From NCBI RefSeq assembly GCF_009617755.1, contig NZ_BGZH01000001.1:2232001-2296000 (forward strand): a stretch of DNA of 64,000 nt, in the 5' to 3' direction. Position 1 is the stretch's first letter, and each line of letters opens with the position of its first letter. A program made the translations under genes and the position numbers. This document shows, one piece after another, positions 26,200 through 37,909 of this stretch. Under the pieces are notes generated by a model. That model ran no database searches. It was given only the letters and a program-made list of their open reading frames with translations, and was not told the origin of the DNA. This DNA is from Marinobacter salsuginis (GTDB lineage Bacteria; Pseudomonadota; Gammaproteobacteria; Pseudomonadales; Oleiphilaceae).

Positions 26200-27510
26200 T
26201 CAGAACAACAACTCCGGCAGCCAGGTGGCAATTTCCGGGAAGATCATGATCAGGATGATGCCGATGATTTCCACAATCACGAAGGGAATGATCGACTTGT
26301 AGATATCCTTCATGGTGATCGACGGCGGCACGATGCCCTTGAGATAGAACAGGTTGAAGCCGAAGGGTGGCGTCATGTAGCCGATTTCCATGTTGATCAC
26401 GAACAGGATGCCGAACCAGATCGGATCGAAACCGAGGGATTCCACGATCGGCATGAACACCGGCAGGGTGATCAGCATAATACCCACGGGGTCCAGCACC
26501 ATGGCCAGCAGGAACACAATTACCATCATGGCGATGATGATGCCCCAGGGCCCGCCGGGCACCATGTTCATCAGGCCTTCGATCAGTTCCTGGGCGCCCA
26601 TGCTCTGGTAGGCTGCGCTGAAGGCATGGGCGGCAAACAGGATCCACATGATCATGCCGGTGAGCTTGAAGGTGCGGATAGCCGCCTCCTTCAGGATGCT
26701 CCACTTGAACTGTTTGTAGACGGCCGCTGAGATGAGCGCGCCCAGAACGCCCATGGCAGCGGCTTCGGTCGGGGTGGTGATACCGCCGATAATCGAGCCC
26801 AGAACCATGACGACAACGCCGATAGGTAGCAGCACGGCTCGCAGAGCCCGCAATTTCTCTGGCCAGGTGCCTCGCTCTTCCTTGGGCAGCGCCGGCGCCA
26901 GGTCCGGCTGCAGGTGGCAACGCACAAGGATGTAGATGGCGGTCAGCACCATCAGCAGAATGCCCGGCATAATGCCGGCAGCAAACATCTGGCCGACGGA
27001 AACGCCGGTGATCAGCGCGTACAGGATCATCAGGATACTGGGCGGAATCAATATGCCCCAGCCACCGCCGGTATTGATCACGCCCAGGGCCATGTTTTTG
27101 TCATAGCCCCGTTCCAGCATCGACGGCAGGGCGATGGTGCCCATGGCCACCACTGCAGCACCGCTGATGCCCACCATGGCAGCAAACACCGCACAGATCC
27201 CAAGAGTGCCCAGAGCCAATCCGCCTCTAAGGCCACCGCACCAGAGATGCATCATCCGGTAAAGATCCCGGGCGACACCGGTACGCTCCAGAATCATGGC
27301 CATGAAGACGAACAGAGGGATGGCAACCAGGGTGAAGCTTTCCATGGTGCCCCAGATCTGCGAGGCCACCATATAGAAAGAGTCGAAGCCCCAGGTGAAA
27401 TACAAGAACACCACCGATACGCCACCGAGAACAAATGCCAGCGGCAGGCCTAGCAGCAGGAAAAACAGCAGCGAACCGAAAAACAGGAGAGTCAGGGCTT
27501 CAATGCTCAC
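26200..27510 (-). CDS. dctM: TRAP transporter large permease (DctM)
   Basis: Large membrane subunit of a tripartite ATP-independent periplasmic importer, 436 aa, about 12 helices. Family segments include IPLFVFMAMILERTGVA and GGWGILIPPSILMILYA. With DctQ it imports an organic acid using a Na+ gradient. Its start overlaps the dctQ stop by 4 bases. Confidence 0.94.
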   Translation of the reverse strand: MSIEALTLLFFGSLLFFLLLGLPLAFVLGGVSVVFLYFTWGFDSFYMVASQIWGTMESFTLVAIPLFVFMAMILERTGVARDLYRMMHLWCGGLRGGLALGTLGICAVFAAMVGISGAAVVAMGTIALPSMLERGYDKNMALGVINTGGGWGILIPPSILMILYALITGVSVGQMFAAGIMPGILLMVLTAIYILVRCHLQPDLAPALPKEERGTWPEKLRALRAVLLPIGVVVMVLGSIIGGITTPTEAAAMGVLGALISAAVYKQFKWSILKEAAIRTFKLTGMIMWILFAAHAFSAAYQSMGAQELIEGLMNMVPGGPWGIIIAMMVIVFLLAMVLDPVGIMLITLPVFMPIVESLGFDPIWFGILFVINMEIGYMTPPFGFNLFYLKGIVPPSITMKDIYKSIIPFVIVEIIGIILIMIFPEIATWLPELLF

Positions 27511-28055
27511 AGCTGATCTCCTTCAGACTCGGCTTCTTCGGGCGTGTAGTAATCCAGGTTAAAGGCCACGGCGATGTCTTCAAGCAGTTTGACCAGTCCC
27601 TGCAGAACCAGCAGAGCGGTGCCGACGGGAATGGCCAGCTTCACCGGCCAGATGGGGGGATTCCACGCCGAATAGGAGGTTTCCCAGCTGGACATGGATT
27701 CCTGCGCCATGTCGATCCCGAACCACAGCAGGGCAAGCGTGAAAATGAAAAAGACCAGGGAGGTAACGATGTCCAGGGCCGCGCGCTTGCGGGGCTTCAG
27801 GTGCGAATGCAACAGATCCACATTTACGTGGCCCCGATGGGCCATGATGTAGCCGCCAGACATCACCGCGTAGATGCCGAAAAGCATCTGGGTCAGCTCG
27901 TTGGTCCAGACCGTGGGGGAGTTGAGCAGATAACGGAAGCCAACTTCCAGAAGCAGGAACACGAACATCGCGAAAATGAGGAGGGCCACCCACCGGCCGA
28001 TAAAATCATTGAGACGGGTAACCCCCCTCATGAATGCGGCGATCATCACACTCAC
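27507..28055 (-). CDS. dctQ: TRAP transporter small permease (DctQ)
   Basis: Small TRAP membrane subunit, 182 aa, with four helices and the family signature in WTNELTQMLFGIYAV; it scaffolds DctM and docks the loaded DctP. The length is at the long end, as in systems with TakP-like binding proteins. It is separated from dctP by a terminator-like hairpin and overlaps dctM by 4 bases. Confidence 0.92.
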   Translation of the reverse strand: MSVMIAAFMRGVTRLNDFIGRWVALLIFAMFVFLLLEVGFRYLLNSPTVWTNELTQMLFGIYAVMSGGYIMAHRGHVNVDLLHSHLKPRKRAALDIVTSLVFFIFTLALLWFGIDMAQESMSSWETSYSAWNPPIWPVKLAIPVGTALLVLQGLVKLLEDIAVAFNLDYYTPEEAESEGDQL

Positions 28056-28140: not shown

Positions 28141-29187
28141 TCAGAGATAGCCGAGGTCGGCCAGGTAACCTTTCAGCATGTCGAGTGCCTTCTTGGCGTT
28201 CTCGCTGCGCTTGCCTTCCTCATCCCACATGGCCTGGGCGGTGGCGACCAGTTTGTCCTGGACTTCGTCCGGCAGAACATTCAGTTGCACACCCTGCTCT
28301 TCGATAGCCTTGGCCAGGGTGATGCGCTCTTTGTACTGGTATTCGTTGGTGCGGATCCAGAACTGTTCGTTGAGGGCGTCCTTGACGATCTTCTGCATGT
28401 CTTCCGGCAGCTTGTCCAGAGCCTTCTGGCTGACGATGATCACGTCGGTGCCGGCAATGTTCAGGGCAGGCTGAACGTGGTGTTTGGCCACTTCATACAG
28501 GCCCATGCTATAGGCGCCCTGGGCCGCACCCCAGTGGGCACCGTCGACAATGCCGGAATCCAGTGCCGAGTAGAGTTCACTGCCGGGAATGTAGGATGCC
28601 GCGGCGCCAGCCTCGGTCAGGAAGGTTTGCAGGGCGCCGGAGGAGCGGATCTTCAGGCTGTTGAAGTCTTCCACGCTTTCAATGGGTTCCTTGACCACCA
28701 TTTCGGTCGGGTAGACCTTGTCGGTCGCCCAGTAAACGCCGTGCTCTGCGGCTTCGTCACGGAGCATCTGCTCGAACCCCAGGTTCTGGTGGAAATAGGC
28801 GGCTTCCCAGACATTACGGAACGCGAACGGCAGACCGGAGGCAATGCCCGCGAGTGAGACCTTGTCCTGGGCATAGGCCGGGGAAATGGTGCCCATTTCC
28901 AGGATGCCACGACTCACCGCGTTGAAGGTGTCCGTGGCCTTGAACAGTGCGCCGGCCTCGTAAAGTTGCAGTTTCAGGCGGCCATCGGTGCGCTCTTCGA
29001 GCACTCGTTTGATGCGGCCAAGGCTGTCAGTGTAGGAGCTGCTGGATCCGGGCCAGTGGGACTGAACCTTCCAGGTGAAGGTGTCCTGGGCCGCAGCGGG
29101 TGCTGCCGAGAGCGCGGCGGTAATACCGAGGGTAAAGGCTGACGCATACACCGTCAGAGTCTTGCGAGCAGTAGCAAAGAGTTTCAT
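28141..29187 (-). CDS. dctP: TRAP transporter substrate-binding protein (DctP)
   Basis: Periplasmic binding protein, 348 aa, with a signal peptide ending AAPAAAQD. The Arg that usually pairs with a substrate carboxylate is probably in LKIRSSGALQ (about 163-172). Segments such as SALDSGIVDGAHWGAAQGAY resemble the TakP-like branch that binds 2-oxo acids and other carboxylates. The ATG is preceded by GAGG at good spacing. Substrate identity is inferred only to the level of an organic acid. Confidence 0.92.
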   Translation of the reverse strand: MKLFATARKTLTVYASAFTLGITAALSAAPAAAQDTFTWKVQSHWPGSSSSYTDSLGRIKRVLEERTDGRLKLQLYEAGALFKATDTFNAVSRGILEMGTISPAYAQDKVSLAGIASGLPFAFRNVWEAAYFHQNLGFEQMLRDEAAEHGVYWATDKVYPTEMVVKEPIESVEDFNSLKIRSSGALQTFLTEAGAAASYIPGSELYSALDSGIVDGAHWGAAQGAYSMGLYEVAKHHVQPALNIAGTDVIIVSQKALDKLPEDMQKIVKDALNEQFWIRTNEYQYKERITLAKAIEEQGVQLNVLPDEVQDKLVATAQAMWDEEGKRSENAKKALDMLKGYLADLGYL

Positions 29188-29617
29188 GAGCTTGCCTCGT
29201 TGATTGTTGTAGTGGCTTTGCCTTGTTTCACTGTGCAGAACTCACAACTGCAGGGTGAATTGTATTCTCTGAATCTATCACATCATTCGGGCTTTGCAAT
29301 AGGATGTTTGTCGTTCCGATTTGCAGCTGCGCGTGGTCGAAGAGTAGCTCAAAAGAACCGTTTTCACCGTCGCGGACCTGCGACATCAGCGCCTGACGCC
29401 TGATCATGGAAGGCTGTAAGCGGCTTTGATAGCCAAAAAGTTCCGCCCGCTACTCGTTGCACTTTTCATTTTTCGTCGATCTTTCTCTATTGTGTTTTGC
29501 TAGATGAAACAACCTTTCAAATATATTGACTCAAAACCGTAAGGCGTGACAAATTACAAAAACAACAGAACTACAAAGACAACATTAGCCGCCTGGCCCA
29601 TCTGGAATGAATGTCTG
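29188..29617. other. AT-rich divergent intergenic region with a candidate promoter
   Basis: 430 bases between dctP (leftward) and the thioesterase gene (rightward). A candidate rightward promoter has TTGACT at 29526-29531, a 17-base spacer and a weak -10 (ACAAAT, 29549-29554). I see no gene, repeat or known operator in the rest. Confidence 0.45.
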
Positions 29618-30058
29618 ATGAATGAGGAAAGCCGCCACATTACCCACGGGCAGGATCTGCCCGGTTTTCACAGTCTGCTTGGCTACCGTCAGGCGTCCTG
29701 GGAGGAAAATGAAGCGGTCATCGAGCTTGAGCTTCGGCCCGTGCATCTGAATCTTGGCGGCGTTATCCATGGTGGTGTGCTGACGTCGCTGTTGGACATA
29801 GCCATGGCACAGGCCGGAACCTACTGTCCCTTTCCTGGCCGGATGCGCAAGGCAGTCACCCTGTCGCTTACCACCACGTTTACCGGCCAGTGTTCCGAGG
29901 GAGTGATTCGGGTAACCGGCAGAAAACGCGCCGGGGGGCGCCGGATCTTCAACAGCACCGGCGAAGTGCATGACGACAAAGGCAACCTGCTGGCCATTGG
30001 CGAGGGCACCTTTCGTATCCGCTCTGGCAGCGACAAGCCAGAGGGTGTTCCGATCTAA
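29618..30058 (+). CDS. Hotdog-fold thioesterase (PaaI family)
   Basis: About 146 aa, a 4HBT/PaaI-type acyl-CoA thioesterase. The core motif [20 protein letters not shown] carries the GG.HGG..... D pattern of the family. The start is uncertain: the ATG at 29618 gives the usual length, while the frame runs from a GTG at 29546. It precedes the ACAD11-type dehydrogenase gene by 57 bases and could release CoA from dead-end intermediates of that pathway. Confidence 0.82.
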
Positions 30059-30114
30059 CGGCCGGCCTGGCAGTTCGATGGCCGAAGAACCAATACCAAC
30101 AAGAGGAAGCGGAC

Positions 30115-31317
30115 ATGTTCGATCTGTCTGATAAAGCGAAAGCGCTTCAATCGAAGCTCAGGGCCTTCATGGATGAGCACATCTATCCCAACGAGCACCT
30201 GCATCACGAGCAGATCGCGCAGGCCGAGAACCGCTGGGCTCCGGTTCCGATCATCGAAGAACTGAAAGCGAAAGCAAAGGCCGAGGGCCTCTGGAACCTC
30301 TTTCTTCCCGAGAGCGACTACGGTGCCGGGCTGAGTAATTACGAATACGCACACCTGTGCGAAATCATGGGGCGCTCGGAGATGGCACCGGAAGTGTTCA
30401 ACTGTTCCGCACCCGATACCGGCAACATGGAAACCATTGCCCGCTTTGGCAACGCCGAACAGCAGGAACAGTGGCTCAAGCCGCTGTTGGCCGGGGAAAT
30501 CCGTTCCTGCTTCTCGATGACCGAGCCCGATGTGGCTTCGTCCGATGCTACCAACATCGCCTGTGAAATCCGCCGCGAGGGTGATGAGTATGTGATCAAT
30601 GGCCGGAAGTGGTGGTCCTCCGGCGCCATGACTACGACATCGAAAATTGCCATTGTCATGGGCAAAACCGACCCTACCGCCGAGAAACACAAGCAGCAGT
30701 CGATGATTCTGGTGCCCCTGGATACGCCGGGTGTGAAGATGATCCGACCGCTGACCGTGTTTGGCTACGACCACGCGCCCCATGGCCACGCCGAGATTCA
30801 CTACGACAACGTGCGGGTACCGGCCAGCAATATCCTGCTCGGCGAGGGCCGGGGTTTTGAGATTGCACAGGGCCGGCTCGGGCCGGGCCGGATCCATCAC
30901 TGTATGCGCACCATCGGTGTTGCCGAACGGGCCCTGGAGTTGATGTGTCGGCGTGCCGGCGAGCGAGAGGCCTTCGGCAAGCCGCTGTCGAGTTTCGATT
31001 CCATCCGCAAGGACATCGCCCGCAGCCGCATCGAAATCGAGCAGGCGCGCCTGATGACTCTTAAGGCGGCGCACATGATGGACACCGTGGGCAACAAGGT
31101 GGCGCGCCAGGAGATTGCCATGATCAAGGTGATCGCACCGAGTATGGCGCTGAAGGTACTCGACCGGGCCATCCAGGTTCACGGCGGTGCCGGTGTCAGC
31201 CAGGACACCTTCCTGGCGTCAGCCTGGGCCAAGGTACGGACGCTGCGGCTGGCGGACGGTCCGGATGAGGTGCATTTGGACTCCGTGGCCAAGATGGAAC
31301 TCCGGCAGTACCGCTGA
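30115..31317 (+). CDS. ACAD11-type acyl-CoA dehydrogenase family protein
   Basis: Flavoprotein of the acyl-CoA dehydrogenase fold, 400 aa, first gene of a tight set. It matches the dehydrogenase half of eukaryotic ACAD11 in long stretches I recognise: [56 protein letters not shown] and [11 protein letters not shown]. In the related bacterial levulinate pathway (LvaC) and in ACAD10/11 this domain acts on 4-phospho-acyl-CoA, removing phosphate to give an enoyl-CoA, and is not a simple oxidation. The matching kinase is a separate gene at 32128. A good ribosome site precedes the ATG. Confidence 0.92.
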
Positions 31318-31340
31318 TTCACCGGCATGAGGATCGAACC

Positions 31341-32108
31341 ATGACCAATTCGTTGTTTGATATGACCGGCAAGGTCGCTGTCATTACCGGCTCAACCAAG
31401 GGCATTGGCCGCGCTATCGCCGAGGAAATGGCCCGTCTTGGCGCCCGGGTGGTGATTTCCAGCCGCAAGGCGGACGCCTGCGAGCAGGTGGCTGCCGAAC
31501 TGAAAGCGCAGGGCTTCGAAGCCATGGCCGTGCCCTGCCATGTGGGCCGGAAAGACGATTTGCAGAATCTGGTCGACCGGACCAACGAAGCCTGGGGCCC
31601 GATCGACGTGCTGGTGTGCAACGCGGCCACGAACCCCGTTTACGGCACCACGGCGGAGATGACCGATGAGGCCTGGGACAAGATCATGGACACCAACGTG
31701 AAGGGCACCTTCTGGCTCACCAACATGGTCCTGCCCCAGATGGCGGAGAAGGGTGAAGGGGCGGTGGTTCTGCTGTCCAGCATTGCCGGCCTTCGGGGAA
31801 ACACCACCATCGGAACCTACGGGGTGTCGAAAGCCGCCGAGGCGGCCCTGGCCCGCAACCTGGCGGTGGAGTGGGGGCCAAAAGGGATCCGCGTTAACAG
31901 CATCGCCCCGGGCCTGATCAAGACCGACTTCGCCAAGGCCCTCTGGGAAGATCCGGTTCGGGTGAAGCGGGCGGAGGACAAGACCCCGCTGCGCCGGATC
32001 GGTGATCCGGTCGATATCGCCGGCCTGGCCGTGTTCCTGTCCACCAGGGCGAGTGCGTACATCACCGGACAGGTCATCGTTGCCGATGGTGGCGAGACCA
32101 TTTGTTAA
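31341..32108 (+). CDS. SDR family oxidoreductase
   Basis: Short-chain dehydrogenase, 255 aa. Cofactor motif TGSTKGIG, NAA motif (CNAATNP), Ser in LSSIAG and catalytic Tyr/Lys in YGVSKAA are all present. The C-terminus ends TGQVIVADGGETIC. It lies 23 bases after the dehydrogenase gene and 19 bases before the kinase gene. In the comparable levulinate operon an SDR (LvaD) occupies this functional slot, oxidising a 3-hydroxyacyl product; that role here is inferred from context. Confidence 0.93.
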   Translation: MTNSLFDMTGKVAVITGSTKGIGRAIAEEMARLGARVVISSRKADACEQVAAELKAQGFEAMAVPCHVGRKDDLQNLVDRTNEAWGPIDVLVCNAATNPVYGTTAEMTDEAWDKIMDTNVKGTFWLTNMVLPQMAEKGEGAVVLLSSIAGLRGNTTIGTYGVSKAAEAALARNLAVEWGPKGIRVNSIAPGLIKTDFAKALWEDPVRVKRAEDKTPLRRIGDPVDIAGLAVFLSTRASAYITGQVIVADGGETIC

Positions 32109-32127
32109 CGGACTCTATAGAGACGCT

Positions 32128-33186
32128 ATGACAACAGCACCAGAGCTGGTAGACGTTTTACCGGCACACAGGTTTGACGAGGAGCGGCTGCTGGCCTGGC
32201 TTCAGGCAGAACTGCCCGAGGTGGGTGAGCGACTGGACGTTCGGCAGTTCCAGGGTGGACAGTCCAACCCGACGTTCCTGCTGGATACCGATGGCGGGCA
32301 ATACGTCCTGCGCAAGAAGCCGCCCGGGAAAACCCTTCCCTCGGCCCATATGGTGGAGCGCGAATACCGGGTTATGAAGGCCTTGGCAGACCACACCGGG
32401 GTCCCGGTTCCCAGGGTGAGGGTGCTGTGCGAAGACAGCGCCGTTGTCGGGACACCGTTCTATGTCATGGACTTTCTGCAGGGCCGGATCATCAGTCATT
32501 CGGCATTGCCTGACCTGGTCCGGGAGGACCGCCTGCTGGCCCACCGCTCGGCCGTCGATACGCTGGCGACCCTGCACTCGGTGGACGTGAACGCGATCGG
32601 CCTCGGAGATTACGGCCGTCCGGAAGGTTACGTGGCACGACAGGTAGCCCGGTGGAGCAAGCAGTATCTGGCTTCGAAGACGGACGAGCTGCCCGCCATG
32701 GACAAGCTCATGGCCTGGTTGCCGGAGAATATTCCGGCCGCGGACGAAACCGCCATCGCCCACGGCGACTACCGGTTCGGCAACCTCATGCTGGCGCCGG
32801 ACAAGCCCGAGGTGATCGGGATCCTCGATTGGGAGCTGTCGACGCTGGGCCATCCGCTGGCGGATCTGGCCTACTTCTGCCTGCCGTACTATCTGCCCTC
32901 CGATATGGAAGGCATGCGCGGTTTGCAGGGAGAGGATCTGGAGGCATTGGGTATTCCCGATGAACAGACGACGATCGCCCGCTACTGCGCGCAGACCGGG
33001 CGCGACGGTATTGATGACTGGCACGTGTTCCTGGCGTTTTCCCTGTTTCGGCTGGCTGCGATCCTGCAGGGGGTCTACAAGCGGGCGCTGGACGGTAACG
33101 CCGCCAATGCCAACGCGCTGAATGTCGGCAGGCGGGCCAGCCTGTTGGCGGACATCGGCTGGCAGATTGCCAGCGAGCACCAATGA
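32128..33186 (+). CDS. ACAD11-type acyl-CoA kinase (aminoglycoside phosphotransferase fold)
   Basis: 352 aa, APH-fold kinase. It corresponds to the N-terminal kinase half of ACAD10/11 and to bacterial LvaA: FQGGQSNPTFLL, YVLRKKPPGKTLPSAH, TPFYVMDFLQGRI, the catalytic HGDYRFGNLM (Asp as base) and ILDWELSTLGHPLADLA (Mg-binding Asp). Predicted to phosphorylate the 4-hydroxyl of a 4-hydroxyacyl-CoA. The ATG at 32128 gives the family N-terminus; the open frame from 32002 lies in the SDR gene. Despite the fold there is no reason to expect antibiotic resistance. Confidence 0.92.
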   Translation: MTTAPELVDVLPAHRFDEERLLAWLQAELPEVGERLDVRQFQGGQSNPTFLLDTDGGQYVLRKKPPGKTLPSAHMVEREYRVMKALADHTGVPVPRVRVLCEDSAVVGTPFYVMDFLQGRIISHSALPDLVREDRLLAHRSAVDTLATLHSVDVNAIGLGDYGRPEGYVARQVARWSKQYLASKTDELPAMDKLMAWLPENIPAADETAIAHGDYRFGNLMLAPDKPEVIGILDWELSTLGHPLADLAYFCLPYYLPSDMEGMRGLQGEDLEALGIPDEQTTIARYCAQTGRDGIDDWHVFLAFSLFRLAAILQGVYKRALDGNAANANALNVGRRASLLADIGWQIASEHQ

Positions 33187-33240
33187 ATAATAGCTGGCTG
33201 CACCTGTGGCCGACTGACTGAACCCTGGAGAGCAACACGC

Positions 33241-34905
33241 ATGTTCACACGCCATTTCAAGGTCTGGCCCCGAGAACTGCCCAAGACCATGACCCTGCCG
33301 GAAACCAGTGTTTTCAGGAACCTGGAAATATCTGCGCTCCGCTACCCGGACCATAACGCGATCATCTTCTACGATGCGCCCCTTACCTACCGACGTCTTC
33401 TGTCGGAAGTGGAAACCATGGCGGGCTACCTGCAGTCACAGGGCGTCGGGAAGGGGGATCGGGTGCTGCTCTACATGCAGAACTCGCCGCAGTACGTGAT
33501 CGCCTACTACGCCATCCTGAGGGCAGACGCCGTGGTGATTCCGGTCAATCCGATGAACCGTGCCGCCGAGCTCGAGCATTTTATTGCCGACACGGGAGCC
33601 TCAATCTGCCTGGCCGGCCAGGAGCTGGCGGACTTCATCATTCCTCTGTTGCCGGAAACGGATCTGAAGCAGGTTGTGGTGGCCTCCTACAGCAGCTACA
33701 TCAAACCGGATACCGATCTCGATCTTCCGGCGGAAGTTGCGGCCCCGGTCTGGTCCCGGGGTGTACGGGGTGTGGTGACCTGGGAGGCTGCCCTGGCGGC
33801 CGGGTACGAGCCGTCAGCCCACACGGCTGGACCTGCCGATCTGGCCGTCATCCCCTACAGCTCGGGTACGACCGGTGCGCCCAAGGGCTGTATGCATACC
33901 CATCGCTCGGTCATGGCAACGGCGATGCACCGTGCCTTCTGGAACCTGAGCACACCGGATACGGTGCAACTGTCCACGCTCCCGTTCTTTCATGTAACCG
34001 GCATGACCGGCTCAATGAACAGTCCCATTTACAGCGGTTCGACGTCGGTGATCATGACACGCTGGGACCGCACCACGGCGGCCCGGCTGATCGAGCGCTA
34101 CCGGGTCACGGGCTGGACCAACATCGTGACCATGGCGGTGGACTTCCTGTCGAATCCGGACATCGGCCAGTACGACCTCAGCAGCCTGAATACCATCGGC
34201 GGTGGAGGGGCCGCGATGCCGGCGGCGGTGGCGGAAAAACTGAAAACCATGACGGGTCTCGATTATATCGAGGGCTATGGCTTGTCCGAGACCATGGCCG
34301 CCACGCACATTAACCCGGTGAAGCAACCCAAGGCCCAGTGCCTGGGTATCCCTGTTTTCGATGTGGACAGCCGGATCATCGATGTGGATACCCTGGAGGA
34401 AAAGGGCCCCGGTGAAACCGGTGAAATTGTATCGTCTGGCCCGCAGGTCACCATCGGGTACTGGAACCGGCCGGCGGAAACCGAAGCCGCGTTCGTGGAG
34501 ATCGACGGCAAGCGTTTCTTCCGTACCGGGGATCTCGGCTACTACGACGAGGACGGCTATTTCTTCATGGTGGATCGGGTCAAGCGCATGATCAACGCGT
34601 CCGGTTTCAAGGTCTGGCCCTCCGAGGTGGAGGGTCTGATGTACCGGCACCCGGCCATCCACGAAGTCTGCATCATCTCTGCACCAGACCCGAAACGGGG
34701 TGAAACGGTCAAGGCCTGCATTGTCCTGACATCCGAGGCGGAGGGAAAAACCTCGGCAGAAGACATCATCAACTGGTGCCGTGAGCAGATGGCGGCCTAC
34801 AAGATACCGACCATTGTGGAGTTTGTGGAGGCACTGCCGAAATCCCCTACTGGCAAGCTGATGTGGCGGGCCCTGCAGGAAGAGGAATGGAAGCAGAATG
34901 CCTGA
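33241..34905 (+). CDS. Long-chain acyl-CoA synthetase (AMP-forming)
   Basis: 554 aa, activates a carboxylic acid to acyl-AMP and then acyl-CoA. ATP-binding loop YSSGTTGAPKGCMHTH, adenylation motif EGYGLSET, hinge region DRVKRMINASGFKVWP and the catalytic Lys in PKSPTGKLM are intact. It starts at the ATG at 33241 behind GGAGAG. It closes the operon, 54 bases after the kinase gene, and by context supplies the acyl-CoA that the kinase acts on, like LvaE. Confidence 0.94.
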   Translation: MFTRHFKVWPRELPKTMTLPETSVFRNLEISALRYPDHNAIIFYDAPLTYRRLLSEVETMAGYLQSQGVGKGDRVLLYMQNSPQYVIAYYAILRADAVVIPVNPMNRAAELEHFIADTGASICLAGQELADFIIPLLPETDLKQVVVASYSSYIKPDTDLDLPAEVAAPVWSRGVRGVVTWEAALAAGYEPSAHTAGPADLAVIPYSSGTTGAPKGCMHTHRSVMATAMHRAFWNLSTPDTVQLSTLPFFHVTGMTGSMNSPIYSGSTSVIMTRWDRTTAARLIERYRVTGWTNIVTMAVDFLSNPDIGQYDLSSLNTIGGGGAAMPAAVAEKLKTMTGLDYIEGYGLSETMAATHINPVKQPKAQCLGIPVFDVDSRIIDVDTLEEKGPGETGEIVSSGPQVTIGYWNRPAETEAAFVEIDGKRFFRTGDLGYYDEDGYFFMVDRVKRMINASGFKVWPSEVEGLMYRHPAIHEVCIISAPDPKRGETVKACIVLTSEAEGKTSAEDIINWCREQMAAYKIPTIVEFVEALPKSPTGKLMWRALQEEEWKQNA

Positions 34906-34953
34906 ACAGGCGGAGAGTCGAGCCTCGTTCGGGCTCCCGCCGATCCGGGCCCG

Positions 34954-35409
34954 TCAGGCAACATACATCATCAGAGTCTCTGCCACACAGGCAGGCCTGT
35001 CTTCACCCCGGATCTCAATAGTGGTCTTGTAGGTGGCTAGCTGGCGCTGATCATCCACCTGATCAACAGAGAGTAGTTCCACGCGGGTACGAATGTCCGA
35101 GCCGACTTTCACCGCCGATGGGAAGCGCAGCCGGTTCAATCCGTAATTGATGGTGGCGGACGGCCCGATCACTCGTATTGCCTGGGGGTTCAGTTTCGAG
35201 ATGAGCGAGACCGTGAGATACCCATGGGCGATGGGGCTTTTCCAGGGTGATTCGCGCCTGGCCCGCTCAACATCAATGTGAATCCACTGGTGATCACCGG
35301 TCACATCGGCAAAGGCATCGACCATCTCCTGGGTGATGGTGAGCCAGGGGCTGTGGCTCTCCAGTTGCCCCGCCAGACCTGCCAGTTCCGTAAGATGTAT
35401 CTCTTTCAT
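34954..35409 (-). CDS. MaoC family enoyl-CoA hydratase
   Basis: Hotdog-fold (R)-specific hydratase/dehydratase, 151 aa. The hydratase motif is seen in AFADVTGDHQWIHID (catalytic Asp and His), followed by SPIAHGYLTVSLISKL. It would hydrate enoyl-CoA to 3-hydroxyacyl-CoA. It lies downstream of a terminator that ends the two dehydrogenase genes, so it may have its own promoter. Convergent to the synthetase gene. Confidence 0.92.
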   Translation of the reverse strand: MKEIHLTELAGLAGQLESHSPWLTITQEMVDAFADVTGDHQWIHIDVERARRESPWKSPIAHGYLTVSLISKLNPQAIRVIGPSATINYGLNRLRFPSAVKVGSDIRTRVELLSVDQVDDQRQLATYKTTIEIRGEDRPACVAETLMMYVA

Positions 35410-35446
35410 GAGCGCTCCCTGGTGATAACCGTTGTCCGCCTCCGGA

Positions 35447-35476
35447 TTAAAAAAGGGGTGGTCTGGCGACCACCCC
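35447..35476 (-). terminator. Intrinsic terminator after the paired acyl-CoA dehydrogenase genes
   Basis: On the minus strand a perfect 9-bp stem GGGGTGGTC / GACCACCCC with a 4-base loop is followed by a T-run. It separates the dehydrogenase pair from the downstream MaoC gene. Confidence 0.85.
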
Positions 35477-35526
35477 TCAAAAAGGCCTCAAAATGACAAG
35501 GCCCCAGGCTCACTGATGAGGGGATT

Positions 35527-36669
35527 CTAGCTTGCCTGTAAAAGAGTGGCGTAAGCCTCCAGGTGGAAATCGTCATCGCCGAGCTGATGATTGATCATCA
35601 CCAGGCGCTTGGCGTAGTGGGCGAAGTTGTACTCCCAGGTCATGCCGATACCGCCGTGGGATTGGACGCCCTGTTCGGAGATGAACTGGCCGCTGCGGCC
35701 GATCACGTTCTTGGCGGCGGCCAGGATTCGACGGCGTTCGTCGCTCTGGGGCTCGTCGGCGACGCTAGCCGCCAGGATGGCCATGGAGCGGGCCTGTTCC
35801 AGCTCGGACATCATGTCCACCATCCGATGCTGAAGCACCTGGAATTTGCCGATGGGCACGCCGAACTGCTTGCGCTGCTTGAGATACTCCAGAGTCAGGT
35901 CACAGGCCACTTCCATGGCGCCTACGGCTTCACCGCACAGGGCGGAAATGGCGCGTCCGGTCTGGTATTCAATCACTTCGGCAGCTTTGCCTTCCTCGCC
36001 GAGCAGGGCTTCGGGACCCAGCTGAACGTTGTTCAGGAACAGGTCACAGCCTTTGGAACCGTCAATCGTCGGATAAGTCCGGCGCTCGAGGCCTTCGGCG
36101 TCAGCCGGAATCAGGAACAGGCTGATGCCATCGGCATCGCGGCTGTCACCGGAAGTTCGGGCAGATACCACCAGCACGTCGGCACAATGCCCGCCGATCA
36201 CGACCGCCTTGCGACCATTCAGCAGGTAACCGTCACCGGACTTCTCGGCGCGGGTTTCCACATCGTTCAGGTTGTAAAAGCTCTGGGCCTCCTGAAGTCC
36301 AACAGCAGCGCGAAGCTCACCGCTGGCAATGCCGCCAAGCCACCGTTCCTGTTGTTCGCTGTTGCCGGCCTGGCTGATCAGCCCGCCGCCCAGAACCACC
36401 GATTGTAGATAGGGCTCAACGCAAAGGCCGCGGCCCAACTCGGTCATCACGCTCTGTACTTCAACACCGGTTCCGCCAAAGCCCCCCAGCTCTTCCGGGA
36501 AGGGCACGGCGGTCAGGCCCAGCTCACCCAGCTGTTTCCAGAAATCGGCGCTGAAGCCCAGCTCCGATTCGCTGAACTCAAGGCGCTTTTCAAAACTGTA
36601 TTCACCGCGTACCAGGCGGGCCACGGTGTCCTGCAGCATCTGCTGCTCTTCATTCAGTCGGAAATCCAT
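35527..36669 (-). CDS. Acyl-CoA dehydrogenase, subunit with the catalytic Glu
   Basis: 380 aa acyl-CoA dehydrogenase fold. The C-terminal HGGIGMTWEYN keeps the Glu found at the base position in this family, and KQRKQFGVPIGKFQVLQH is the FAD-contact segment. It sits 10 bases after another dehydrogenase gene (36680-37876). Adjacent pairs of about 400 and 380 residues are known to form heterotetramers, for example pimeloyl-CoA dehydrogenase PimC/PimD and the steroid side-chain enzymes of actinobacteria; I infer the same here. Confidence 0.9.
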   Translation of the reverse strand: MDFRLNEEQQMLQDTVARLVRGEYSFEKRLEFSESELGFSADFWKQLGELGLTAVPFPEELGGFGGTGVEVQSVMTELGRGLCVEPYLQSVVLGGGLISQAGNSEQQERWLGGIASGELRAAVGLQEAQSFYNLNDVETRAEKSGDGYLLNGRKAVVIGGHCADVLVVSARTSGDSRDADGISLFLIPADAEGLERRTYPTIDGSKGCDLFLNNVQLGPEALLGEEGKAAEVIEYQTGRAISALCGEAVGAMEVACDLTLEYLKQRKQFGVPIGKFQVLQHRMVDMMSELEQARSMAILAASVADEPQSDERRRILAAAKNVIGRSGQFISEQGVQSHGGIGMTWEYNFAHYAKRLVMINHQLGDDDFHLEAYATLLQAS

Positions 36670-36679
36670 GGTCGCCTCC

Positions 36680-37876
36680 TTAAAGCCCGAGAATCATTTT
36701 CGACACGATGTTCTTCTGGATCTCGTTGGACCCGCCGAAAATCGACAGCTTGCGGTTGTTAAAGTACTGGGGAGTAACCGGCGCGGCGTTTTCGTCCGAC
36801 AGGAAGTCGCCCTCGTAATCCAGGTTCAGTTCCTCTTCCACGAAGGGAATGGCGTAAGGGCCAATGGCCCGGCGAGCCAGATCGTTGATGGTCTGGCGAA
36901 TCTCGGTGCCGCGGACTTTCAGCATGGAGCTTTCCGCTCCCGGCATGCCGCCGCCCTCCACGGACGCGATGATCCGCAGGTTGCTGATTCCCGCAGCCAT
37001 CAGGTCAATCTCAACCTGGGCAATGCGCTGGCTGAATGAAGGATCCTCAATCAGCGGGCGACCATTTTTGATCCTGCGGGTTGCCAGCTCCTTCAGGTGC
37101 TGCAGCGCAGCCTTGGAAATGCCAATGCCGGCCAGGCCGGTTCGCTCGTATGTGAGCAGGTACTTGGCGTAGGTCCAGCCCTTGTCTTCCTCGCCCACCA
37201 GGTTTTCTACAGGAACCTTCACGTCCTCGAAGAACACTTCGTTGACTTCGTGCTCGCCGTCCAGAGTGATGATCGGGCGCACGGTAATGCCCGGGGTGTT
37301 CATGTCGATCAGCAGGAAGGAGATGCCCTCCTGGGCCTTCACTTCGGTGTTTGTGCGAACGAGGCAGAAAATCATGTTGGCGTGCTGGCCCAGGGTGGTC
37401 CAGGTTTTCTGGCCATTCACAATGTAGTGGTCGCCCTCGCGCACGGCCCGGGTCTTGAGTGAGGCCAGGTCCGAACCGGCGCCCGGCTCGGAGTAGCCCT
37501 GACACCACCAGTCTTCGCCGCTGAGGATTCTTGGCAGGTACCTCTGCTTCTGTTCTTCGGTTCCAAACTTGATAATCACCGGCGCCACCATGTTGACGCC
37601 GAAAGGCACGGAACGGGGCGCCCCATAACGAGAGGATTCCTCATCCCAGATGTGCTTCTGAACCGGGCTCCAATTTACACCGCCGTATTCTTCCGGCCAG
37701 TGAGTGGCGTACCAGCCCTGCTCGCTGAGTATTTTCTGCCAGCGCTGGTGGTCCTCCTTGGACAGCCGGCGGAACCCTTTTACCTTGGCGGAGATATCCC
37801 CCGGCAGCTTTTCATCCAGGAACGCGCGGACCTCATCACGGAAGGCGAGCTCCTCGGTAGTGTAATTCAAGTTCAT
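36680..37876 (-). CDS. Acyl-CoA dehydrogenase, large partner subunit without the usual Glu
   Basis: 398 aa acyl-CoA dehydrogenase fold. It has the N-terminal helical region, GYSEPGAGSDLASLKTRA and GQKTWTTLGQHA typical of the family, but its C-terminus reads NRKLSIFGGSNEIQKNI without the GG.G...E segment seen in the neighbour, as in large subunits of heteromeric dehydrogenases. The ATG at 37876 has GAGG at good spacing; the TTG at 37897 is less likely. First gene of a two-gene transcript, with repeated TACCGC sites in its promoter region. Confidence 0.9.
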   Translation of the reverse strand: MNLNYTTEELAFRDEVRAFLDEKLPGDISAKVKGFRRLSKEDHQRWQKILSEQGWYATHWPEEYGGVNWSPVQKHIWDEESSRYGAPRSVPFGVNMVAPVIIKFGTEEQKQRYLPRILSGEDWWCQGYSEPGAGSDLASLKTRAVREGDHYIVNGQKTWTTLGQHANMIFCLVRTNTEVKAQEGISFLLIDMNTPGITVRPIITLDGEHEVNEVFFEDVKVPVENLVGEEDKGWTYAKYLLTYERTGLAGIGISKAALQHLKELATRRIKNGRPLIEDPSFSQRIAQVEIDLMAAGISNLRIIASVEGGGMPGAESSMLKVRGTEIRQTINDLARRAIGPYAIPFVEEELNLDYEGDFLSDENAAPVTPQYFNNRKLSIFGGSNEIQKNIVSKMILGL

Positions 37877-37909
37877 GAATAGCCTCTCTTGCTTCAAAGC
37901 GAAAACATA

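Follow-up and report, generated by a model that had tools for sequence, protein, structure and literature searches.

A Marinobacter operon encoding a split counterpart of animal ACAD11, with a predicted role in the catabolism of 4-oxo and 4-hydroxy acids

A 64,000-nucleotide stretch of the Marinobacter salsuginis genome (contig NZ_BGZH01000001.1, positions 2,232,001 to 2,296,000; hereafter the window) carries at 29618-34905 an operon of five + strand genes which, by their open reading frame (ORF) coordinates, encode in this order a thioesterase, an acyl-CoA dehydrogenase (ACAD), a short-chain dehydrogenase/reductase (SDR), a kinase and an acyl-CoA synthetase. The operon probably forms a module that breaks down 4-oxo and/or 4-hydroxy carboxylic acids, built around a split counterpart of animal ACAD11. 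The breakdown of 4-hydroxy acids was assigned to ACAD10/11 only in 2024-2025. The chemistry is already known, but by sequence comparison the window proteins resemble the animal enzyme more closely than they do those of the bacterial levulinate (lva) pathway. The operon represents a genetically tractable split ACAD11 in ordinary marine bacteria, it sets the ACAD11-type branch apart from the lva branch, its analysis points to DUF6285 as the probable family of LvaB, and it names a DHRS4-type SDR as a candidate upstream enzyme that is testable in bacteria and animal cells. The host genome measures 4.15 Mb, and Marinobacter species are its closest named relatives as judged by the kinase (89% for M. 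nitratireducens).

Relationship to ACAD11

ACAD10 phosphorylates 4-hydroxyacyl-CoA and then eliminates the phosphate, and split orthologues from Burkholderia replaced each ACAD10 domain in vitro (PMC11342911); since these orthologues work as separate proteins, a split and functional ACAD10/11 pair is already in print. The same source puts bacterial kinases other than LvaA at up to 51% and 38% identity to the kinase domains of ACAD10 and ACAD11, respectively, while the mechanism and residues of ACAD11, a peroxisomal enzyme, have been described elsewhere (PMC12440821). Beyond these two articles the open-licence PMC literature yielded no further work on a bacterial ACAD10/ACAD11 operon.

Among solved structures the window ACAD scores highest against ACAD11 (505 bits), followed by 4hr3 (458 bits) and, far behind, a next match of 145 bits; by score 4hr3, a putative ACAD, appears to belong to the ACAD10/11 group. 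The window kinase is nearest to 3dxp (363 bits), ACAD11 (289 bits) and 9o56 (207 bits), and much more distant from 3ats (66 bits), 9fsg (49 bits) and macrolide kinases (28 bits), with no choline kinase among its eight solved-structure matches at E <= 0.001. The depositors of 9o56 titled it an aminoglycoside phosphotransferase (APH), and the kinase tree puts it among the B-type kinases defined below. Models of resistance families all stay under their cut-offs against the window kinase: NF033068 reaches 36 bits (cut-off 205), Mph 19-20 (500, 640) and capreomycin Cph 19 (390). In global alignments with mouse ACAD11 the ACAD is identical at 233 of 391 positions (60%) and the kinase at 148 of 340 (44%).

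In ACAD11 the 4-phosphate is bound, and the base provided, by R626, H634, R637 and D753 (PMC12440821). In the window ACAD, R254, R259, H262, R265, D381 and H225 correspond to mouse R626, R631, H634, R637, D753 and H597, so that the protein carries the catalytic Asp (D381) in place of Glu. Every ACAD10/11-like ACAD with 380 or more residues in the fetched stretches (67, counting that of the window) keeps the set of five that reads RRHRD, and residue mapping did not find a set of this type in the two other ACADs adjoining the operon. In the kinase, D214, N219, D234 and R171 match mouse D220, N225, D240 and R176, the last of which contacts CoA, and equivalents of all four are present in every A-type kinase (81/81, counting that of the window). 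All catalytic and phosphate-pocket residues that could be mapped are thus kept in both window proteins. In one aligned stretch the window ACAD and mouse ACAD11 read the same 12 residues, but human Pro463, which belongs to an active-site-widening proline motif (PMC11342911), could be tied to no column of the alignment. The two domains are not fused, being encoded by separate ORFs with the SDR gene between them, and on these comparisons the window pair is a split counterpart of ACAD11 rather than an ACAD11 protein.

The first-pass annotation, made from the sequence without database searches, had outlined the operon with the thioesterase before, the synthetase after and the SDR between, and both coordinates and order were right. 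Its proposal of a split ACAD11-like pair is borne out by the bit scores, identities and residues; it had named antibiotic or choline kinases as the relatives that would tell against this, and the kinase proved closest to neither. The 4-hydroxyacyl-CoA chemistry that it suggested is likewise supported by homology, residues and the published assays of orthologues. Its proposals of lactones as substrates and of chains longer than levulinate are conjectural.

Kinase types and their distribution

A survey of 299 genomes of the phylum (thresholds E <= 1e-20 for the kinase and E <= 1e-70 for the ACAD) gave a kinase match in 113 genomes, an ACAD match in 114 and DUF6285 in 31. Stretches were fetched, mostly one per genus, around 80 A-type kinases, 20 B-type kinases and 20 DUF6285 places (L174 was empty), the types being assigned by score and tree: A is the type of the window (at least 43% identity), B shares 32-39% identity in the fetched examples, and C is linked to DUF6285. 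The resulting sets comprise 80 A-type kinases (79 of the 80 fetched, since overlap filtering left no kinase frame in L097, together with L161), 20 B-type kinases (the host's second locus plus 19 of the 20 fetched) and 33 C-type kinases, of which 19 stem from the survey (18 picked by DUF6285, one a chance find in L077) and 14 from the L290-L303 stretches described below. Since the C-type kinases were chosen via DUF6285, their link to this family holds by construction. The linkage counts exclude the window and are lower bounds, as some stretches stop at contig ends.

In the kinase tree the window and mouse ACAD11 group with types A and B and are separated from every one of the 33 C-type kinases. 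Support for A, B and mouse together is 0.998 with L161 and L162, whose kinases lie outside both the A and B clades, on the C side, and 0.677 with both included; the mouse ACAD11 kinase is sister of the A-type clade (0.716). The ACAD tree unites mouse ACAD11 with all 67 ACADs, that of the window among them (0.755), nested in a wider group that also takes in the lva-type ACADs (1.0). An ACAD10/11-like ACAD lies within 3.5 kb of 47 of the 80 A-type and 13 of the 20 B-type kinases, and a histidine phosphatase within the same distance of 10/80 and 15/20, respectively. DUF6285 within 250 bases of the kinase was found at none of the 80 A-type and none of the 20 B-type loci; at one A-type locus (L077) a C-type kinase with DUF6285 stands about 2 kb off. 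The equivalent of R176 is kept in every A-type (81/81, window included) and B-type (20/20) kinase and in 5 of the 33 C-type kinases.

The host genome has a second pair at another locus (L003), whose kinase and ACAD are 35% and 56% identical to those of the window, in a cassette with a B-type kinase. As annotated, the order LysR, ACAD, SDR, kinase and histidine phosphatase is the same on an Ideonella plasmid (L275) and a Pseudoalteromonas plasmid (L276), the final SDR of the cassette being present on the latter and not on the former.

The lva operon and LvaB

Our statements on the lva operon of strain KT2440 rest on PMC6692424, PMC11342911 and PMC12440821, and the sequences used for comparison are five lva-type references (L290-L294) from a Pseudomonas-like genus of the same order. 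They emerged from a search for the DUF6285 family in 249 genomes of that genus, which gave 17 matches and led to 14 fetched stretches (L290-L303). In L290-L294 the kinase, ACAD, SDR and synthetase follow one another in lva order, and DUF6285 occupies the place of lvaB after the kinase in L290, L291, L293 and L294; L292 has a family match there, though the ORF scan did not list it. By Pfam, L290 encodes a divergent PrpR_N/sigma-54 regulator, APH, DUF6285 (118 residues), ACAD, SDR, AMP-binding, DUF485 (107 residues) and SSF, the gene set given for lvaR-ABCDEFG, whose LvaB is a 12 kDa protein (PMC6692424). Because the gene order of L290 matches that of lvaR-ABCDEFG, LvaB very probably belongs to DUF6285 (PF19802), a family not named in the open-licence PMC literature.

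The equation of LvaB with DUF6285 had been doubted on account of kinases near ordinary ACADs or none, a doubt that was dropped once the lva-type operons were found. Both kinds of DUF6285-linked kinase exist: all 13 ACADs from stretches L290-L303 show RRHRD, nine ACADs near other DUF6285-linked kinases read FRQSE instead, and further such kinases are near no ACAD. DUF6285 or a C-type kinase near ordinary ACADs was seen in L164-L166, L168, L170, L172, L173, L175 and L176, and these loci perhaps serve a different kinase-dependent acyl-CoA reaction. The loss of the R176 equivalent from most C-type kinases suggests that LvaB may compensate for an altered CoA site in this branch.

Identities between the window and L290-L294 are low throughout, at 29-31% for the kinase, 36-37% for the ACAD, 33-34% for the SDR and 29-31% for the synthetase. 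LvaC is credited with 62% and 56% identity to ACAD10 and ACAD11 (PMC11342911); the 13 lva-type ACADs share 34-38% identity and 54-57% positives with mouse ACAD11, which does not fit the published figures. On these comparisons the window operon is parallel to the lva operon, not orthologous to it. The earlier description of the set as most of the lva pathway therefore stands for the reaction logic and fails for orthology, against which the identities, the trees and the SDR clade all speak. Its observation that lvaB is absent proved correct: the intergenic gaps of 56, 23, 19 and 54 bases, in gene order, leave no space for a small extra gene inside the operon, none of the 80 A-type kinases has a DUF6285 neighbour, and a search of the host genome for DUF6285 (PF19802) gave no match, the same search matching in 2 of 14 control genomes.

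Several other loci touch on this comparison. Three genomes of the same genus (G159, G133 and G070; L181, L182 and L183) carry an SDR, a divergent ACAD, a C-type kinase, DUF6285 and a synthetase, an arrangement that is not in the host genome; their ACADs score 211-228 bits to the window ACAD, and that of L181 has all five RRHRD residues. At two lva-type loci of the Pseudomonas-like genus, kinase and ACAD have a histidine phosphatase beside them (L295:9335-10054 and L296:7731-8492; 132 and 130 bits to Pfam His_Phos_1), as in P. citronellolis. None of the second-tier ACAD matches in two Pseudomonas-like genera stood in an lva setting; what turned up was a B-type cassette (L184), along with ACADs that had no kinase match close by.

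The SDR and DHRS4

Among solved structures, DHRS4 (2zat, 3o4r, 5ojg) is closest to the window SDR, its three best scores being 222, 217 and 173 bits; next comes a 7-alpha-hydroxysteroid dehydrogenase (155 bits). A tree was built from 104 SDRs, namely neighbours of the kinases, nine SDRs from lva-type loci and pig and human DHRS4. The two animal proteins, the window SDR and nine further SDRs linked to A-type kinases make up a clade of 12 members (support 0.968). None of the nine SDRs from lva-type loci appears in the broader DHRS4-like group (0.859); one node deeper, support is 0.103. A DHRS4-like SDR stands within 3.5 kb of 16 of the 80 A-type kinases, 9 of the 20 B-type and none of the 19 C-type kinases from the survey. 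Among the best 8 of 16 SDR matches in the host genome, the NAAxNP motif that DHRS4 also has occurs only in the two at the ACAD/kinase loci; their scores against human DHRS4 are 214 and 172 bits, those of the others up to 138.

DHRS4 is peroxisomal, and DHRS4-type SDRs are broad carbonyl reductases. As ACAD11 is peroxisomal too and an SDR of the DHRS4 clade is linked to its bacterial counterpart, we would guess that animal DHRS4 and ACAD11 share a pathway; among the matching articles in the open-licence PMC literature, none is about such a link by its title. A bolder and rather doubtful extension is that DHRS4-type SDRs are dedicated 4-oxoacyl-CoA reductases for ACAD11-type pairs, animal DHRS4 serving ACAD11 likewise, and that LvaB is needed only by the lva kinase branch, which has mostly lost Arg176.

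Operon conservation and neighbouring genes

Conservation was followed in 80 loci fetched by kinase, the best 80 of 133. The order thioesterase, ACAD, SDR, kinase and synthetase on one strand recurs in 49 of them (47 exactly, two with one gene in two pieces), all from Marinobacter except L248 (Stutzerimonas stutzeri) and L247 (a Pseudomonas metagenome-assembled genome, MAG); several of the remaining 31 are short contigs or have more distant kinases. A homologue of DctP, the solute-binding protein of a tripartite ATP-independent periplasmic (TRAP) transporter, lies upstream in 22 of the 80 loci, cut by the locus edge in 11, and homologues of DctM and DctQ are encoded divergently upstream, both in the same 8. 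The 22 include L243, L245 (Stutzerimonas), L247 and L248, of which L243 and L245 have DctP upstream but no ACAD or thioesterase there; of the 49 loci with a thioesterase gene, 20 have DctP. The recurring TRAP transporter suggests that a soluble acid is imported. One locus of Marinobacter type (L208; 83% for the kinase) belongs to a record titled as a Rhodopirellula MAG, where mis-binning is probable.

Table 1. Features of the operon, its upstream flank and the second ACAD/kinase locus (window positions unless a locus is named)
Feature	Position	Strand	Basis and remarks
DctM, TRAP large membrane subunit	26200..27510	-	Pfam DctM 304 bits; divergent from the operon; probable substrate importer
DctQ, TRAP small membrane subunit	27507..28055	-	Pfam DctQ 101 bits
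DctP, TRAP solute-binding protein	28141..29187	-	Pfam DctP 155 bits
Divergent intergenic region, TRAP genes / operon	29188..29617	.	between DctP and thioesterase
Hotdog-fold (PaaI-like) thioesterase, 146 residues	29618..30058	+	TIGR00369 48.5 bits (cut-off 36.6); Pfam 4HBT
ACAD10/11-type ACAD, predicted FAD-dependent 4-phosphoacyl-CoA lyase	30115..31317	+	homology, residues
DHRS4-clade SDR, predicted 4-oxoacyl-CoA reductase	31341..32108	+	solved relatives, tree
ACAD11-type APH-fold kinase, predicted 4-hydroxyacyl-CoA 4-kinase	32128..33186	+	homology, residues, tree
AMP-forming acyl-CoA synthetase, PRK08314 subfamily (family name long-chain-fatty-acid-CoA ligase)	33241..34905	+	NF006181 874 bits (cut-off 705)
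Second ACAD10/11-type cassette	L003:7395-13324 (contig C2 363000-382000)		divergent LysR, ACAD, SDR, B-type kinase, histidine phosphatase, DHRS4-like SDR

The thioesterase has a possible alternative GTG start at 29546, and the open frame at its place in relatives measures 146 residues in L064 and 167 in L067. No promoter-like match was found in the divergent intergenic region (one match over 29100-35600, with 2.0 expected), an Rfam search of the region gave no match, and none of the five operon genes encodes a lactonase. Convergent to the operon at 34954-37897 are a MaoC-like gene and two ACADs nearest to the PimD and PimC models, below cut-off; the MaoC-like and PimD-like pair is found on that side in 19 of the 80 kinase-fetched relatives, and a PimD-like gene without the MaoC-like one in 4. 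A terminator-like hairpin of 11 pairs follows the two neighbouring ACAD genes on the - strand (35453-35478), the whole scan giving 7 sites with 5.7 expected.

Proposed pathway and its alternatives

In the pathway that we favour, an acid would be imported by the TRAP transporter, as its recurring position suggests, and turned into its CoA ester by the synthetase, as expected from its family. By analogy with LvaD, the DHRS4-clade SDR may reduce 4-oxoacyl-CoA to 4-hydroxyacyl-CoA, though it could act elsewhere. The kinase would then phosphorylate the 4-hydroxyl with ATP, and the ACAD, with bound flavin adenine dinucleotide (FAD) and Asp381, would eliminate the phosphate held by Arg254, His262 and Arg265, giving trans-2-enoyl-CoA with no net oxidation; both steps draw on homology, residues and the published assays on split orthologues. 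Ordinary beta-oxidation would complete the breakdown. The window pair presumably does not require LvaB, and the thioesterase, at a guess, frees CoA from stalled esters.

Some observations sit awkwardly with this pathway. No ACAD10/11-like ACAD was seen within 3.5 kb of 33 of the 80 A-type kinases, and no DHRS4-like SDR within that distance of 64. Instead of a 4-oxoacyl-CoA, the substrate of the SDR could be an unrelated carbonyl, or the enzyme could be a 3-hydroxyacyl-CoA dehydrogenase. As to chain length, the family name of the synthetase (long-chain) disagrees with the TRAP importer (soluble acids). In 29 of the 49 thioesterase loci no DctP was seen; an extra SDR and/or synthetase gene stands upstream there, and no more than 1,002 bases remain. 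Since 11 loci with equally little upstream sequence still showed a DctP fragment, the transporter may be missing in some of the 29. Finally, the published kinase residue R86 is unmatched (position 86 is F in the numbering here) and was not used, an Arg-Glu pair being found at the helix of that region in the mouse, window and second-locus kinases.

These points leave room for other explanations. APH-fold kinases have many substrates and other fatty-acid genes adjoin the operon, so the ACAD might be a classical acyl-CoA dehydrogenase, set by chance beside a kinase for an unrelated small molecule. We hold this to be very improbable, given that the Asp for Glu and the three phosphate-pocket residues are kept, that an ACAD recurs near more than half of the A-type kinases and that the kinase is closer to ACAD11 than to antibiotic kinases; an earlier suggestion that ACAD11 acts on plain acyl-CoAs, which would favour it, was not reproduced (PMC12440821). 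A more serious contender, if still a minority prospect, retains the kinase/ACAD chemistry and assumes that the acyl chain bearing the hydroxyl is branched, isoprenoid or derived from a ring, with the SDR as a later 3-hydroxyacyl-CoA enzyme. The recurring PimD/PimC-like and MaoC-like genes next door would suit such a substrate, as would the broad specificity of DHRS4-type SDRs, but the MaoC and PimD neighbours are on the opposite strand and absent from 54 of the 80 loci, and the association of DHRS4-like SDRs with A- and B-type kinases, to the exclusion of the C type, argues against it.

It is also unlikely that the operon is simply the lva pathway of Marinobacter, with levulinate (C5) as substrate, orthologous genes and lvaB lost. 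The reaction logic is the same, with a kinase, an RRHRD-bearing ACAD, an SDR, a synthetase and a transporter, and a levulinate cluster without lvaB is on record in P. citronellolis (PMC6692424). Yet L290 differs in its sigma-54/PrpR regulator, in DUF6285 at the lvaB place, and in having DUF485 and an SSF symporter; its proteins and those of L291-L294 are distant from the window ones, both trees separate window and mouse from the lva type, and three other genomes of the genus (L181-L183) carry a DUF6285 operon in addition. The catabolic module built on a split ACAD11 thus remains the explanation that we prefer.

Comparison with known systems

The window operon and the lva operon follow a common plan of importer, ligase, reductase, kinase and lyase, the parts of which differ. 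Reaction logic, the five ACAD residues and the presence of an SDR, a synthetase and a transporter are shared, whereas the lva operon has DUF6285 (LvaB), an SSF symporter and a sigma-54 regulator, none of which adjoins the window operon, with its TRAP transporter and extra thioesterase instead, and the lva-type SDRs belong to another clade. The levulinate cluster of P. citronellolis, with kinase, ACAD and SDR, lacks lvaB like the window operon, according to the available text of PMC6692424, and has a histidine phosphatase beside the LvaA homologue, a gene found at the second locus of the host and not in the window operon. The split Burkholderia orthologues are a separate kinase and ACAD, as in the operon, and the available text on them does not mention an LvaB-like partner (PMC11342911). 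Animal ACAD11 and ACAD10 share with the operon the kinase, the ACAD and the mapped catalytic and pocket residues; ACAD11 is one fused chain, while the operon encodes two proteins in reversed order, with the ACAD gene first and the SDR gene between, and adds a thioesterase, a synthetase and a TRAP neighbour. Animal DHRS4, lastly, belongs to the same clade as the window SDR, which is bacterial and encoded within the operon.

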